A stretch of 64,000 nt of DNA from Butyricicoccus faecihominis (GTDB lineage Bacteria; Bacillota; Clostridia; Oscillospirales; Butyricicoccaceae), in NCBI RefSeq assembly GCF_024462775.1, contig NZ_JANGCE010000001.1, forward strand, positions 248,001-312,000, given 5' to 3'. The notes beneath the pieces are model-generated. The model ran no database searches, was not told where the DNA came from, and saw only the letters and a list, made by a program, of their open reading frames with translations. Each line of letters begins with the position of its first letter. The stretch's first letter is position 1. Both the position numbers and the translations under genes were made by a program. Positions 17,615 through 22,088 of the stretch are shown here, piece after piece.

Positions 17615-18898
17615 ATGAAATTTGCTTTCCACACGCTCGGCTGCAAAGTCAACTTATTTGAAACGCAGGCGCTGATGCAGCTTGCCGCCGAACGCGGGCA
17701 TGAGATCGTCGATCAGGGGGCGGACGCGGTAATCGTCAACACCTGCACGGTGACCGCTGTGTCCGATCATAAAAACATCCGAGCTTTTCATAAGCTGCGG
17801 CGCGATAATCCGGATGCCGTGATCGCCGCCTGCGGCTGCTTCGCCCAGCTTGAACCCGAGCGCGTACGCGCGAGCGGAGAGATCGATCTGATCTGCGGAA
17901 CGCGCGAGCGCGCGGCTATCCTCCGTCAGTGCGAGCAGGCGGTCTGCGGCCATGTGGAGCCTGCGGCCACGCATACAGATGAACGCTTTGAAGTTCTGCC
18001 GGCCGGCGTACCGCGCGGCAGAACGCGCGCCCTGTTAAAAATCGAGGATGGCTGCGATAACTTTTGCGCTTACTGTATCATTCCCTATGCGCGCGGCAGG
18101 GTGCGTTCGATGCCGCCGGAGCGGGTGGAAAGCGAGGTAAACCGGCTGCAAACTTTTGGCGTGCACGAGATCGTGCTCACCGGTATCGAGCTTTCCTCTT
18201 ATGGGCGTGACCTATCGCAGGATATATCGCTCGTACCATTGCTGCGCTCGCTTCTTGGGGCGCATCCCGGTCTGCGTTTTCGCCTTGGGTCGCTCGATCC
18301 ACGCACGGCAGATCAAGCTTTTTGCAACGAGCTTTCCGGGTACGACAATCTCGCCCGGCACTTCCATTTGTCCCTGCAAAGCGGCTGCGACAGCGTGCTG
18401 CAACGGATGAACCGGAAATATGATACGGCGCTTTTTCATCAAAACGTATCATCTCTGCGCCGCGCTTTTCCGGACTGCTCGATTACGACCGACCTGATCG
18501 TCGGCTTTCCCGGCGAGACCGAGGCGGAATTTCAAGAAACGCTGACTTTTTTGGAGCGCTGCGCCTTTGCCTCCGTGCACGTTTTCCCCTATTCACGCCG
18601 CGCCGGTACGCGTGCGGATCAAATGGAGGGGCAGGTGCCGCAGCCGGTCAAGGAAGCGCGCGCCGCACGCGCCAAAGCGCTGGCGGAGCATCTCAGCGAG
18701 CGTTACCGCGCGGGGTTTGTTGGGCGTGCGCTTTCCGTCCTGCCGGAGCATCCCGTTTCCGGTGGCCTGTGGGCCTGCCACAGCAGTTTTTTCTTTCCCG
18801 TCTATCTATCCGGCGGCGGGCTGTCCAAAAACACTCCGGTCTCGGCGCGTATCACCGAATTATACCGCGACGGCCTACGCGCAGAAAAAATATTATGA
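17615..18898 (+). CDS. mtaB: tRNA t6A37 methylthiotransferase MtaB
   Basis: 427 residues from the ATG at 17615 (GGGAGA upstream, standard start FAFHTLGCKVN). An N-terminal UPF0004 domain supplies cysteines for one iron-sulfur cluster (GCKVN, VNTCTVT, ACGCF). The radical SAM motif CDNFCAYCIIPYARG holds the CxxxCxxC of the second cluster. It converts t6A37 to ms2t6A37 in ANN-decoding tRNAs. The C-terminal TRAM-like region is short, ending TELYRDGLRAEKIL. It lies just upstream of the interrupted small-peptide gene. Confidence 0.93.
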   Translation: MKFAFHTLGCKVNLFETQALMQLAAERGHEIVDQGADAVIVNTCTVTAVSDHKNIRAFHKLRRDNPDAVIAACGCFAQLEPERVRASGEIDLICGTRERAAILRQCEQAVCGHVEPAATHTDERFEVLPAGVPRGRTRALLKIEDGCDNFCAYCIIPYARGRVRSMPPERVESEVNRLQTFGVHEIVLTGIELSSYGRDLSQDISLVPLLRSLLGAHPGLRFRLGSLDPRTADQAFCNELSGYDNLARHFHLSLQSGCDSVLQRMNRKYDTALFHQNVSSLRRAFPDCSITTDLIVGFPGETEAEFQETLTFLERCAFASVHVFPYSRRAGTRADQMEGQVPQPVKEARAARAKALAEHLSERYRAGFVGRALSVLPEHPVSGGLWACHSSFFFPVYLSGGGLSKNTPVSARITELYRDGLRAEKIL

Positions 18899-18967
18899 GC
18901 GATTAGGCACATATCTCTGTTTCCGACCATAGGATGAAGTGAAATCTTTGATAGGAGGAAATAACTT

Positions 18968-19012
18968 ATGTGTTCTTCTAATGGTCTTTGGGGCGAAAAT
19001 AACTGGTGGTGA
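18968..19012 (+). pseudogene. 5' part of a small hydrophobic Cys-rich peptide gene, split by an integrative element
   Basis: ATAGGAGGAA lies seven bases before the ATG. The frame reads MCSSNGLWGENNWW and then TGA, 14 residues. The last codons (AAC TGG TGG TGA) lie in the 11-base core repeat at 19001-19011. The same core in the same frame at 21204 continues as WWWIIIVIILIWICCC and a Cys/Gly/Asn-rich tail. Joining the two at the core restores a 57-residue reading frame. In the present arrangement only the 14-residue peptide can be made. Confidence 0.8.
19001..19011 (+). repeat. attL core of the integrative element
   Basis: AACTGGTGGTG, identical to 21204-21214. It marks the left junction between the peptide gene and the element. 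Confidence 0.75.
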
Positions 19013-19021
19013 ACTATAATC

Positions 19022-19074
19022 AAAAAGCGCGTAGAGCCTGCTCGGTCAAGGCTTACGCGCTTTTTCTTTTCATA
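19022..19074. terminator. Bidirectional terminator at the left end of the element
   Basis: AAAAAGCGCGTA...TACGCGCTTTTT arms surround an imperfect loop containing an inner GCC/GGC pair. T-runs on both strands allow termination of the integrase transcript and of reading from the peptide gene. Confidence 0.75.
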
Positions 19075-19078
19075 GGAT

Positions 19079-19087
19079 CGTACCAAA
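19079..19087 (+). repeat. Arm-type repeat, left end of element
   Basis: CGTACCAAA. An inverted copy lies at 21178-21186, close to the right core. Both sit about 20-70 bases from the cores, as arm-type sites of tyrosine integrases do. Confidence 0.4.
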
Positions 19088-19096
19088 TTCGTACGG

Positions 19097-20149
19097 TTAG
19101 GTGAGTGCGCTGAGTTGGGCGGCCACATCGGCCTGCTTGTTGGGGTAAAGATGGCTGTATATGCGAAGGGTGGTATCCACGCTGTCGTGGCCAAGGCGCT
19201 CGGCGATCAGGAGTGGCGAGCAGCCAATTTCGATCAGCATGGAAGCGTGACTATGCCGCAGGTCATGCACGCGAATGGCGGGCGTCTGCGCGCGCGCCGC
19301 ATAGCGTTTGATAGCGGCGGAAACGAAACCTGGCGAACGGTGAAACAGTTTATCCTTTTGGGAGGGCTTATATAAGCCCTCGATATAAGCGCGCAGCCCA
19401 TCGCAAAGCGGACCGGGCAGGGTGACGGTTCGGTTGCTGTTCTCCGTTTTGGGAGACGTTACGACGTCCAGTCCATGGCGGCGGTCGAGTGTTTTGGTGA
19501 TCGATACGGTCTTACGGTCGAGATCGATATCGGATACGGTCAGGGCGAGGCACTCGCCGCGACGCATACCCGTCCAAAACAAAATTTCATAGATCATACG
19601 AAGCTCGGGATCGTCCACGACGGCGATGACCTTGCGGTACTGCTCCAGCGTCCAAAATTGCATGACCTTAGCGTCGCGCTTGCCCATACGCGGTTCTTTG
19701 CGGCAAGGGTTAAGCGATAGGCCGTAATAGCGCTCGGCAAAGGTGAATAGCGCGGCCAGATCATTATTGATGGTGCGCAGATAGGTGCTGCTGAAGTTCT
19801 GCCGCATCATTTGGTTTTGCCACTGATGAATCATGAGCGGTGTGATCGATCCGACGGGGATATCGCCAAAGGTAGGTAAGATCTTATCCCTAAAAATATG
19901 CCGTTTTTTGATGATCGTTGCTTCCTTGAGGCGCGTTTCGCAGGAGGCAAGGTAAAGCTCATACATGCTGCGAAAGGTCATATTGCAGCTGCCGCTGTGC
20001 TGTTTGGCGTAGGCATCCTCGTATTTCTTAGCGTCCGACTGGCGGGCAAAGCCCTCCTTCTTTTTGCGGTGCACGGCGCCGAATGCGTCACGGTAATAAA
20101 AGGACGCATACCACCGGCCACTGCCGTCGGTCATTTTCTTTACGGACAT
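19097..20149 (-). CDS. int: Tyrosine recombinase (phage-type integrase)
   Basis: 350 residues. The N-terminal region (GRWYASFYYRDAFGAVHRKK) looks like the AP2-type arm-binding domain of Tn916/phage integrases, followed by a SAM-like core-binding domain. The catalytic domain has Arg in TGMRRGECLAL, His-x-x-Arg in HDLRHSHASMLIEIG, His in LGHDSVDTT and the nucleophilic Tyr in RIYSHLYP. It should recombine the 11-base core. GAGAGGGG precedes the ATG at 20149. The full set of catalytic residues suggests it is active. Confidence 0.93.
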   Translation of the reverse strand: MSVKKMTDGSGRWYASFYYRDAFGAVHRKKKEGFARQSDAKKYEDAYAKQHSGSCNMTFRSMYELYLASCETRLKEATIIKKRHIFRDKILPTFGDIPVGSITPLMIHQWQNQMMRQNFSSTYLRTINNDLAALFTFAERYYGLSLNPCRKEPRMGKRDAKVMQFWTLEQYRKVIAVVDDPELRMIYEILFWTGMRRGECLALTVSDIDLDRKTVSITKTLDRRHGLDVVTSPKTENSNRTVTLPGPLCDGLRAYIEGLYKPSQKDKLFHRSPGFVSAAIKRYAARAQTPAIRVHDLRHSHASMLIEIGCSPLLIAERLGHDSVDTTLRIYSHLYPNKQADVAAQLSALT

Positions 20150-20331
20150 ACGAAACCCCTCTCCATATCATAACTGTTCTGAAAATTGTATGATTGGGGC
20201 AGGGAAAAGTAGTCCGCAAGGATTTGCTTCCGCAGGATCTCGTCCGGCGGCAATGTAATTCTTTTTGCATACGCGTACGAAAAAGGACAACCCGCGACAG
20301 CATAAGATAAAACAAAGCAGGAGGCGATTGA

Positions 20332-20499
20332 ATGGAGCTGATCGATGTCAAAGAAGTTCAAAAAGTACTCGGCGGTATTGGAAAAAGCAAAGCGTATGAA
20401 ATTATGCAGCAGCTGAATCAGGAACTAGAGCAAAAAGGATACCTTGTCATTCGCGGCAAAGTGCCGCGCGGGTATTTGGAAGAGCGATTCCATAAATAG
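20332..20499 (+). CDS. Small excisionase-like DNA-binding protein
   Basis: 55 residues, with GCAGGAGG before the ATG. It begins MELIDVKEVQKVLGGIGKSK, continues with KAYEIMQQLNQELEQKGY and ends PRGYLEERFHK. This matches the pattern of small winged-helix excisionase-like proteins of ICEBs1-type and Clostridia elements. It is divergent from the integrase with a 182-base gap. It would direct the integrase toward excision. Confidence 0.75.
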   Translation: MELIDVKEVQKVLGGIGKSKAYEIMQQLNQELEQKGYLVIRGKVPRGYLEERFHK

Positions 20500-20559
20500 A
20501 TGGGAACGGCGGATCCGTATAAAGGTAAGAGCTACCCAAACGAAAATTTTCACCAAAAT

Positions 20560-20606
20560 AAAGCGCGCCGGACGCTCTGCTGTATGCGATGCGTCCGGCG
20601 CGCTTT
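20560..20606. terminator. Terminator after the excisionase-like gene
   Basis: Perfect 16-base arms 20560-20575 and 20591-20606, ending AAA/TTTT, with a 15-base loop. It separates the excisionase-like gene from the XRE gene. Confidence 0.8.
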
Positions 20607-20623
20607 TGGTACTATAAATAGCC

Positions 20624-20639
20624 AAGTATTTGGATACTT
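20624..20639. promoter_or_regulatory. Candidate operator upstream of the XRE gene
   Basis: Perfect inverted repeat AAGTAT-TTGG-ATACTT, 54 bases before the XRE start. It fits a dimeric helix-turn-helix repressor site; autoregulation is inferred. Confidence 0.45.
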
Positions 20640-20692
20640 AGCAATATTCTCCAAAATGCGATAAGATGCTCCTTACAAAAGGAGGTATCCCA

Positions 20693-21073
20693 ATGCTAGA
20701 AGAACTGATTTGCACATCGATGGCCAGAACCCGAAAAAGATTGGATCTGAAACAGAACCAGATCGAGGTCAAGGCGGAAATGGCGGAAGGGAATTATGGC
20801 AAGTATGAACGAGGAGAGATGAATCCGACGCTTTCTACCGTATGGAGGATCGAGCAGGCGCTTTCATTGCCGCGCTATACGCTATTTAATGAAAACGCCG
20901 GAATAGAGGGGGCGGAACCTTGCTATGAAACACTCAATCGCTTTGCCCGTCACAATATTTTTGTGGATGACGATACGCCGGATACCGAGCCGTCCCCGCT
21001 GCTAGACCTTGTGAGCGATGCGCTGATCGAAAAGTTTACGCTTGAGGCCATAGAGCTTATGGCCGAAGAATGA
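20693..21073 (+). CDS. XRE-family transcriptional regulator of the element
   Basis: 126 residues from the ATG at 20693 with AAAGGAGGT six bases upstream. Residues about 8-60 form an XRE helix-turn-helix (RTRKRLDLKQNQIEVKAEMA, EGNYGKYERGEMNPTLSTVW). The C-terminal half is acidic without a recognised domain and contains no visible LexA-type protease or metalloprotease motif. It probably represses int and/or the excisionase-like gene (inference). Confidence 0.85.
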   Translation: MLEELICTSMARTRKRLDLKQNQIEVKAEMAEGNYGKYERGEMNPTLSTVWRIEQALSLPRYTLFNENAGIEGAEPCYETLNRFARHNIFVDDDTPDTEPSPLLDLVSDALIEKFTLEAIELMAEE

Positions 21074-21177
21074 TCGACAGCGGGAACGTACCGTTACCGT
21101 ACTCCTCAAATAAGGAACGAGCGGTAAACTGCGTAAAAACATTTACTTATCGGCTGTTTTAGCACAAGTTACCGCAT

Positions 21178-21186
21178 TTTGGTACG
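21178..21186 (-). repeat. Arm-type repeat, right end of element
   Basis: Reverse complement of CGTACCAAA, matching 19079-19087. Confidence 0.4.
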
Positions 21187-21203
21187 GATCGGTATGTTTT
21201 TCA

Positions 21204-21214
21204 AACTGGTGGTG
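21204..21214 (+). repeat. attR core of the integrative element
   Basis: AACTGGTGGTG, identical to 19001-19011 and in the same codon phase. Confidence 0.75.
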
Positions 21215-21344
21215 GATCATCATCGTGATCATCCTTATCTGGATCTGCTGCTGTGATCAGGGTGGTAGCTGCGGCTCGAACAATAATAACTGTGGCTGCG
21301 GCGGTTGCTGCGACAATAATGGCTGCGGCTGTGGCTGCTGCTGA
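21204..21344 (+). pseudogene. 3' part of the small hydrophobic Cys-rich peptide gene
   Basis: From the core AACTGGTGGTG the frame reads NWWWIIIVIILIWICCC, then a Gly/Asn/Cys-rich tail ending CGCGCC and TGA. The frame is open upstream to 21114 but has no ATG, GTG or TTG, and no ribosome binding site fits, so this half is not translatable alone. Fused to 18968 at the core it gives 57 residues with one membrane segment and 13 cysteines. A good terminator follows. Confidence 0.8.
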
Positions 21345-21379
21345 TCATCCCCACATACCCAGGTAAATTTTCCTATGCG

Positions 21380-21418
21380 GCGGCGCGGCTTTTGGGCCGC
21401 GCCGCAGTTTTTTTTATT
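21380..21418 (+). terminator. Terminator of the small-peptide gene
   Basis: 10-base GC arms 21380-21389 and 21396-21405 (GCGGCGCGGC and complement), loop TTTTGG, then AGTTTTTTTTATTTTTTT. Confidence 0.85.
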
Positions 21419-21434
21419 TTTTTGAAATTTCCTC

Positions 21435-21463
21435 TTGCAAAAGTGAAAAAAATGGGTTAGAAT
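21435..21463 (+). promoter_or_regulatory. Promoter of efp
   Basis: TTGCAA (21435-21440), 17-base spacer, TAGAAT (21458-21463), 62 bases before the efp start. Confidence 0.65.
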
Positions 21464-21524
21464 AAATAAGCGCTGTTCAGGGGAACAGCTTAACGAAGGA
21501 TATTTCTTTTGGAGGAATTACGAT

Positions 21525-22088
21525 ATGATTTCCGCAGGTGATTTTCGCAACGGCGTGACCTTTGAGATGGACGGTCAGGTGCAGCAGGTTGTTGAGTTCC
21601 AGCACGTTAAGCCGGGCAAGGGTGCAGCTTTTGTTCGCGTAAAAATGAAGAACGTCATCACCGGCGCGGTAACCGAACGTTCCTTCAACCCTACCGATAA
21701 ATACGAGGAAGCTTTTGTGGAGCGCCGCGATATGCAGTACCTCTATAACGAAGGCGACCTGTACTACTTCATGGATAACGAATCCTACGAGCAGATCCCG
21801 ATTAACAAGTCTACACTTGGCGACGGTTTCCGCTTTGTTAAGGAAAACGAGAATGTCAAGGTTTGCTCCTATAAGGGCAGCGTGTTTGCCGTAGAGCCGC
21901 CGCTGTTCGTTGAACTTGAGATTACCGAGACCGATCCGGGCTTCAAGGGCAATACCGCGACTAACACACTCAAGCCCGCTATCGTTGAAACCGGCGCCAG
22001 CGTTCCGGTACCGCTTTTCCTCGAGACCGGCGACCGCATCAAAATTGATACCCGCACCGGCGAGTATCTTGAGCGCGCCAAGGGCTGA
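21525..22088 (+). CDS. efp: Translation elongation factor P
   Basis: 187 residues, the normal EF-P length, with three beta-barrel domains. It relieves ribosome stalling at polyproline. The loop [14 protein letters not shown] carries the lysine at the tip that is modified in many bacteria. The C-terminal OB domain ends [18 protein letters not shown], a family signature. TTGGAGG precedes the ATG. Confidence 0.97.

Follow-up and report, generated by a model that had tools for sequence, protein, structure and literature searches.

A compact tyrosine-integrase element, probably prophage-derived, divides a putative sporulation peptide gene in Butyricicoccus faecihominis

What is a 2.2-kb integrative element doing inside a gene of 57 codons, and could the gene be recovered by losing it? 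The locus that raises this question lies in a stretch of 64,000 nucleotides of Butyricicoccus faecihominis (assembly GCF_024462775.1, contig NZ_JANGCE010000001.1, positions 248,001 to 312,000 of the forward strand), which we call the window and whose own positions are used below. The element separates the two parts of a small peptide gene located between mtaB and efp. A preliminary description of the window had likened this arrangement to skin-type elements and regarded it as a regulated gene switch. The best overall explanation of the data, and one that we consider likely, is that a prophage-derived element occupies a peptide gene with a sigma-K-type promoter and may be excised in the mother cell.

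Layout of the element and of the gene it divides

The window holds two exact copies of the 11-base sequence AACTGGTGGTG (19001-19011 and 21204-21214); with one mismatch allowed there are three sites, compared with 0.45 expected, and 1 of 100 shuffled sequences reached three. The element lies between the two exact copies, at a run of Trp codons (TGGTGGTGG). The direct-repeat core at both of its ends, together with the empty site found in relatives, identifies it as an integrative element. The features of the locus are the following.

17615-18898, plus strand: mtaB (tRNA methylthiotransferase), the upstream neighbour; TIGR01579, 378 bits, cut-off 357
18908-18936, plus strand: sigma-K-type promoter of the peptide gene (CACA, 16 bases, CATAGGATG), assigned from conservation of the motif with its 16-base spacing
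18953-18958, plus strand: ribosome binding site AGGAGG, from the sequence
18968-19012, plus strand: 5' part of the peptide gene, 14 codons from the ATG at 18968, closed by a TGA created at the element border
19001-19011: attL core AACTGGTGGTG, the point from which uninterrupted relatives diverge
19022-19065: terminator-like inverted repeat, its ends rich in A/T, separating the stub from int; seen by eye and not listed by the scanner
19097-20149, minus strand: tyrosine integrase, 350 residues; PF00589, PF14659, phrog_1, five-species alignment
20332-20499, plus strand: Xis-like directionality factor, 55 residues; NF047858 below cut-off, phrog_989
20693-21073, plus strand: XRE-family regulator, PF01381; an alternative start is at 20666, and by eye the ribosome site is better at 20693
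21204-21214: attR core AACTGGTGGTG
21204-21345, plus strand: 3' part of the peptide gene, WWWIIIVIILIWICCC and then a Cys/Gly/Asn-rich tail, with no ATG, GTG, or TTG start
21525-22088, plus strand: efp (elongation factor P), the downstream neighbour; TIGR00038, 251 bits, cut-off 186

The 5' part follows a well-placed ribosome site and closes after 14 residues. The 3' part continues in the same codon phase, and from the preceding in-frame stop to the right core there is no ATG, GTG, or TTG codon and a single CTG. Joining the two parts at the core yields 57 codons for a small, hydrophobic, Cys-rich peptide, whose homologues in relatives (43-56 residues) also lie between mtaB and efp. The preliminary description had already recorded the exact repeat, the three genes between its copies, the stub, the right half without a start, and the joined frame, and had placed the attachment site within a small peptide gene that insertion breaks and excision at the core would restore; all of this holds. 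Its coordinates left out the last base of the stop codon, at 21345.

Oriented against mtaB and efp, the integrase gene is separated from the attL core by 85 bases, and its product is recognized by PF00589 with 77.6 bits against a cut-off of 27.1. The Xis-like protein matches NF047858, the model of ICEBs1 Xis, with an E value of 1.7e-15 and 56.5 bits, below the cut-off of 100, and copies 63% identical to it are found in three of the related elements described below (G019, G020, and G022). The XRE regulator matches PF01381 with 30.7 bits (cut-off 23). The reading frames of all three genes are intact. Between the genome of the window (G000) and a second genome of the same species (G004), int differs by 10 synonymous and 4 other changed codons, compared with 7 and 8 in mtaB. 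Judged by these substitutions, the reading frame of int looks constrained, which is compatible with mobility or with a role in the host. The left ends of two related elements (L018 and L019) hold inverted repeats similar to the one at 19022-19065. No structural or packaging gene was recognized in the 2.2 kb of the window with Pfam, NCBIfam, or PHROG, which separates the element from a complete prophage. We also considered an integrative and conjugative element and rejected it, as the element has only three genes and none matches a relaxase, a coupling protein, or a type IV secretion component.

Upstream of int, a −10 sequence of the KCATANANT type is present in G000 (within 20150-20190 of the window), G004, G011, G019, and G020, and not in G022. 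A scan of 18880-21540 for sigma-70 promoters found three, compared with 3.6 expected by chance.

Occupied and empty sites in relatives

We compared 25 Agathobaculum genomes, G000 and G004 among them. Matches to the joined peptide, whole or in part, came from 22 of them, some of the weakest being to other proteins. The uninterrupted order mtaB-peptide-efp, which had been set beforehand as a test of the joined frame, is found in 14 of the 25 genomes (G001, G002, G003, G007, G009, G010, G013, G014, G015, G016, G017, G018, G021, and G023), and 13 of these 14 peptides have 43-56 residues. Six genomes representing five species (G000, G004, G011, G019, G020, and G022) are interrupted, all at the same Trp-codon core. 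The other five (G005, G006, G008, G012, and G024) yielded no match to mtaB or to efp at the thresholds applied, which makes them uninformative. Assembly gaps are common at the locus, with no efp match in G019 and G020 and no mtaB match in G022.

Alignment with the relatives places both borders of the element within the AACTGGTGGTG repeats, in agreement with the ends proposed earlier. The outcomes that the preliminary description had named as refuting it are thereby excluded. The core common to all of the elements narrows to approximately GGTGGTG, that is, to Trp codons, and TGGTGGTGGAT is kept in 12 of the 14 uninterrupted genes. Trp has a single codon; the sequence of the attachment core would therefore be held fixed by the sequence of the protein. 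In G000, G004, and G022, the right half of the peptide gene has kept an open frame. Between G000 and G004, divergence amounts to 1.2% in mtaB, 1.3% in int, and 0.5% in efp. AGGAGG is present in the aligned loci of the relatives, which were found with a pattern that itself contains AGGAGG. When named genomes were scanned, the leader pattern matched 18 records: 14 from Agathobaculum, one from Butyricicoccus, one from a Eubacteriales bacterium, and two that resemble chance matches (a Nitrospira and a Methanofilum). No other copy of the leader motif was found in G000 at three or fewer mismatches besides the peptide locus.

The same attachment site receives larger elements. In a set of 87 genomes from the family, six integrases, that of the window included, share at least 68% identity (68-99%), and all six are at the peptide site; the next integrase is 48% identical. 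In G020 the site holds a large prophage with terminase, Mu-type portal, head morphogenesis, and baseplate J genes, which lie on the same contig as the integrase, 18-26 kb away, the contig ending inside the element. The element of G019 is about 15 kb long and encodes an AAA protein, a protein with a metallo-beta-lactamase fold, a replication-type protein, and two DNA methylases. The right borders of the elements in G019, G020, and G011 are outside the assemblies; efp of G011 is on another contig, with different upstream DNA that appears by eye to be amylase-like coding sequence. G022 carries a second short element at the site, of about 3.7 kb. To the left of its left core, L059:1-90 (G022:C53) is not the peptide gene and may represent a tandem second element or a misassembly. 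Since this site is occupied by a large prophage in G020, the element of the window is best read as a stripped prophage.

How often the site has been occupied can be approached through a tree of mtaB (19 rows, 5 of them interrupted; G022 has no mtaB and is not on the tree). At least four changes are required to explain the interrupted state, three of them forced by well-supported branches, and repeated insertion is the simpler reading of this scattered occurrence. An integrase search of viral_contigs gave 58 stretches that matched the pattern, none of which was confirmed as a relative.

The promoter of the peptide gene and the sporulation factors of the host

A strongly conserved block precedes the peptide gene in the loci of the genus. 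It contains the pattern [ACT]AC[AC]-N16-CATAnnnT in 18 of 18 loci (14 uninterrupted and 4 interrupted), with spacers that vary in sequence. The published consensus for sigma-K combines a KCACM −35 element with a GCATANNNTA −10 element (PMC3416734), and in C. difficile it is the AC of the −35 element by which sigma-K is told from sigma-E (PMC3789822). As a control, the same pattern was sought in 728 upstream regions of open reading frames of at least 100 residues; the two matches were both the peptide promoter itself, reached from overlapping frames, and were set aside. Altogether the pattern matched 16 times in 599,430 scanned bases, or approximately 0.0015 times per upstream window.

The peptide is also found beyond the genus. 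Of 394 genomes of the order, 54 gave a match to a profile built from the peptides, and 42 of these 54 are outside the genus; 18 loci from these, among the matches listed, were used for the promoter count. The motif with 16-base spacing is found in 13 of the 18, a 15-base version in one, and neither in four. These loci include other families of the order (peptide example, MCKNSGFFGGGSCWWIIILVVILVCCCD), and in six of the seven that belong to the same family the gene lies just upstream of efp. The outside-genus loci L134-L152, except L139, represent a peptide family of other genera and families of the order, with members that are hydrophobic, rich in Cys, and roughly 28-60 residues long.

Because the sigma-K-type promoter is conserved with a fixed 16-base spacing, the peptide gene is probably a member of the sigma-K regulon and a late mother-cell sporulation gene, as judged from these motifs. 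By analogy, it is probably the kind of target that skin-type elements occupy. The host encodes homologues of Spo0A (298 bits, cut-off 200), of SigE (NF006158, 350 against 339), and of the SigK family (NF004471, 265 against 252).

A divided sigG in the same genus

The gene of the forespore sigma factor, sigG, is also divided in most of this genus. In 20 of the 25 genomes, an N-terminal piece of sigG (profile positions 2 to approximately 96) and a C-terminal one (starting near position 92) are encoded at separate places; G021 has the N piece only, G012 and G013 have the C piece only, and G002 and G016 have a single frame. The frame of G016 is complete; in G002 the two parts are joined and the 3' end is different. 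The N piece, in the 21 genomes read, stops in the same core, GTGCCGATGA (GTGCCAATGA in G018), and the non-coding flank beyond it is largely conserved. The 21 C pieces examined start at ATGCCGATGA (ATCCCGATGA in G023), so that TGCCGATGA is common to the end of one piece and the start of the other. Although they do not code for protein, the outer flanks are conserved, and by eye the two combined would form a near-palindrome. A serine recombinase gene, 78-100% identical to that of G001, directly precedes the C piece in 22 of 22 loci and accompanies none of the N pieces; the two checked by Pfam carry PF00239, PF07508, and PF13408.

The two pieces are 112 kb apart on the same strand in G001 and approximately 757 kb apart on opposite strands in G004 (C1:2504338-2504622 and 1747354-1747842). 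In G000 they are at C12:213380-213664 (L153) and C36:26452-26892 (L211), and the other loci are L187-L206 and L157-L181. Rejoining would need an inversion in G004 and an excision in G001; a single simple rearrangement is therefore less likely, and a sigma factor in two parts is a further possibility. A second break, at HISQ codons near the 3' end, is present in G000, G002, G011, G017, G020, and G024, and not in G004 (L211, L214, and L175-L178). On this evidence from the assemblies, the split sigG is possibly a programmed rearrangement or a two-part sigma factor. Nothing on a split or interruption of sigG was found in the literature, among the matches listed.

Discussion

The closest precedents are elements that interrupt sporulation genes, compared here on the portions of the cited papers that describe them. 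Skin in sigK of B. subtilis and skin-Cd of C. difficile split a mother-cell sporulation gene (PMC5025042), and skin places its own recombinase just inside the 5' part of the split gene (PMC10747680). The element of the window likewise splits a probable mother-cell gene, has its recombinase just inside the 5' part, and would restore the frame upon excision. It differs in that skin uses a serine recombinase and its excision is demonstrated, whereas here the recombinase is of the tyrosine type, the target is a small-peptide gene, and excision is predicted. SP-beta in spsM (PMC4191935) and phi3T in kamA (PMC6957869) are phages whose excision rebuilds the sporulation gene that they occupy. In G020, likewise, a large prophage occupies the peptide gene, whereas the window copy is down to int, xis, and the XRE gene. 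Gin in gerE, of 28.6 kb and with three serine recombinases, is excised in vivo and in vitro (PMC5595907); it resembles the window unit in its very small (225-bp) late mother-cell target gene and in having no phage structural genes, the window unit being of the tyrosine type and about 1/13 of its size. Yin in yabG is a putatively functional prophage with a serine recombinase (PF00239), for which its authors proposed restoration of the gene under sigma-K (PMC10747680). The parallel is a prophage-like element within a sigma-K-controlled gene (here by promoter motif), and the difference is again that between a serine recombinase in a putatively functional prophage and a reduced tyrosine-type unit.

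Gin, skin, SP-beta, and vfbin all use serine recombinases (PMC5595907); the integrase of the window departs from the published sporulation elements compared here in this feature. A closer match in design is the minimal unit attL-int-rdf-attR (rdf, directionality factor), as in ICEBs1, versions of which can replace one another, including in SP-beta (PMC6957869). In the window element, too, an Int and a small directionality factor lie between the att sites, accompanied by an XRE gene; ICEBs1 is conjugative, whereas no conjugation genes are present in the window element. The Int protein of ICEBs1 is of the tyrosine type. No natural tyrosine-recombinase intervening element of a sporulation gene with excision was found in the literature, among the matches listed, nor was anything on prophage integration sites in Agathobaculum; by title and the start of the abstract, the papers on Agathobaculum prophages are not on this subject. 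We do not file the element under the skin type, as membership needs sporulation-specific excision, although it may well work in a skin-like manner.

The following sequence of events can be envisaged. A prophage-derived 2.2-kb element was inserted into the Trp-codon run by site-specific recombination of the tyrosine-recombinase type, and it keeps attL, the integrase, the Xis-like factor, the XRE regulator, and attR, with nothing else recognized. Integration parts the promoter, ribosome site, and 14 codons from the remainder of the gene. Growing cells may lose the peptide at little cost if the gene is needed only late and in the mother cell. Int and Xis would excise the element once the XRE regulator or a sporulation signal permits, and excision would rebuild the 57-codon gene in the mother cell. 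We are confident of the anatomy, the origin, and the sporulation-gene target taken jointly. Regulated excision in the mother cell is more tentative, a proposal with slightly less than an even claim, and a developmental DNA switch is a plausible role for the element. The skin analogy of the preliminary description has gained from the sigma-K-type promoter and from the Spo0A, SigE, and SigK-family homologues. Its argument from the reading frame is insufficient by itself: the frame alone is no evidence for regulation because any precise recombination at the core keeps it.

The same element could instead be an ordinary cryptic prophage remnant. Phages of the genus would use the peptide gene as attB, the Trp codons that keep the core sequence fixed would explain the choice of site, and the window copy would be decaying, locked in place, and without a host role. 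We treat this as a serious alternative that somewhat less than half persuades us, and its probability overlaps with that of the preferred reading because both hold the element to be prophage-derived. It is in keeping with the prophage in G020 and the larger element in G019, with the scattered occurrence on the tree, with the failure to see an excised form, and with the retention of TGGTGGTGGAT in most uninterrupted genes. A decaying copy is harder to reconcile with three intact reading frames, with the excess of synonymous changes in int relative to mtaB in two strains that share the insertion, with a right half that is still open in three genomes, and with a target whose sigma-K-type promoter would make mother-cell excision cost-free. 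A satellite or small mobile element that still moves with a helper phage, its effect on the peptide being incidental, would account for the compact int-xis-regulator unit and for the second short element in G022. Against it, no packaging, relaxase, or interference gene is recognized among its three genes, both genomes of the species have the same insertion, and viral_contigs yielded no confirmed relative; we consider it improbable. Equally improbable, in our estimate, is that the peptide has another role, such as in metal binding or stress, and that the sigma-K-type motif arose by coincidence. Such a role would agree with the lack of any family model matching the peptide and with yabG not being found in the genus (25 genomes, E 1e-20), whereas coincidence sits poorly with 16-base spacing across divergent spacers in 18 of 18 and 13 of 18 loci, compared with 2 of 728 controls that were both the peptide promoter itself, and with a gene that keeps its place upstream of efp in six of the seven same-family loci outside the genus.

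Excision from a sporulation gene in the mother cell, the reading that we prefer, has a number of observations weighing against it. Some concern the target. No model of Pfam, NCBIfam, or PHROG matched the peptide of the genus up to E 0.1; the promoter pattern is also matched at other spacings in 11 of the 18 genus loci, its −10 element ends CATAnnnTG with G where the consensus has A, and the 16-base version is missing from 5 of the 18 loci outside the genus. Others concern the host. The equivalog models for SigE (TIGR02835, 338 of 349) and SigK (TIGR02846, 257 of 299) were missed, a SigF-like factor is below its cut-off, sigG is split in most of the genus, and yabG, tried as an internal sigma-K control, was found in 0 of 25 genomes at E 1e-20; no report of spores in Agathobaculum was found in the literature, among the matches listed. 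With regard to excision itself, the excised form is absent from the assemblies, and both genomes of the species carry the element. No clear sporulation promoter was found upstream of int or xis: perfect sigma-E-type −10 sequences precede int in four of five species without a −35 element, and the regions upstream of xis in G000, G019, G020, and G022 share CATAnnnT without a consistent −35 element. In G022, an in-frame ATG inside the element precedes the right half and opens a frame of 58 residues (L059:3695-3871). None of 187 bases changed in the gene halves between G000 and G004, and other segments range from 0% to 4.7%, which makes the test of purifying selection too weak. The interrupted label is not clustered on the mtaB tree (158 of 500 shuffles were as low), which cannot separate gains from losses. 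Finally, the prophage at the site in G020, the different DNA upstream of efp in G011, and the nonsense codon carried at position 10 by the uninterrupted copy of G010 (L007) are as compatible with an ordinary attB that the host can dispense with.

The most far-reaching form of the proposal is a domesticated switch in which a tyrosine integrase and an ICEBs1-like Xis act only in the doomed mother cell and rebuild a sigma-K-dependent membrane peptide there, in a genus that may rearrange at least two sporulation genes, sigG included, and with a unit smaller than the published sporulation intervening elements compared here in the parts of the papers that describe them. We regard this form as doubtful. 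Whatever its fate, the locus adds a new target to the sporulation genes occupied by excisable elements, namely a small membrane peptide family of the order that is probably controlled by sigma-K. If excision is true, tyrosine-type units can join the sporulation programme, and about three genes suffice. Within one genus, the same att site is found empty, with a large prophage, or with a minimal element, and the path from phage to switch would thus be testable by comparison.

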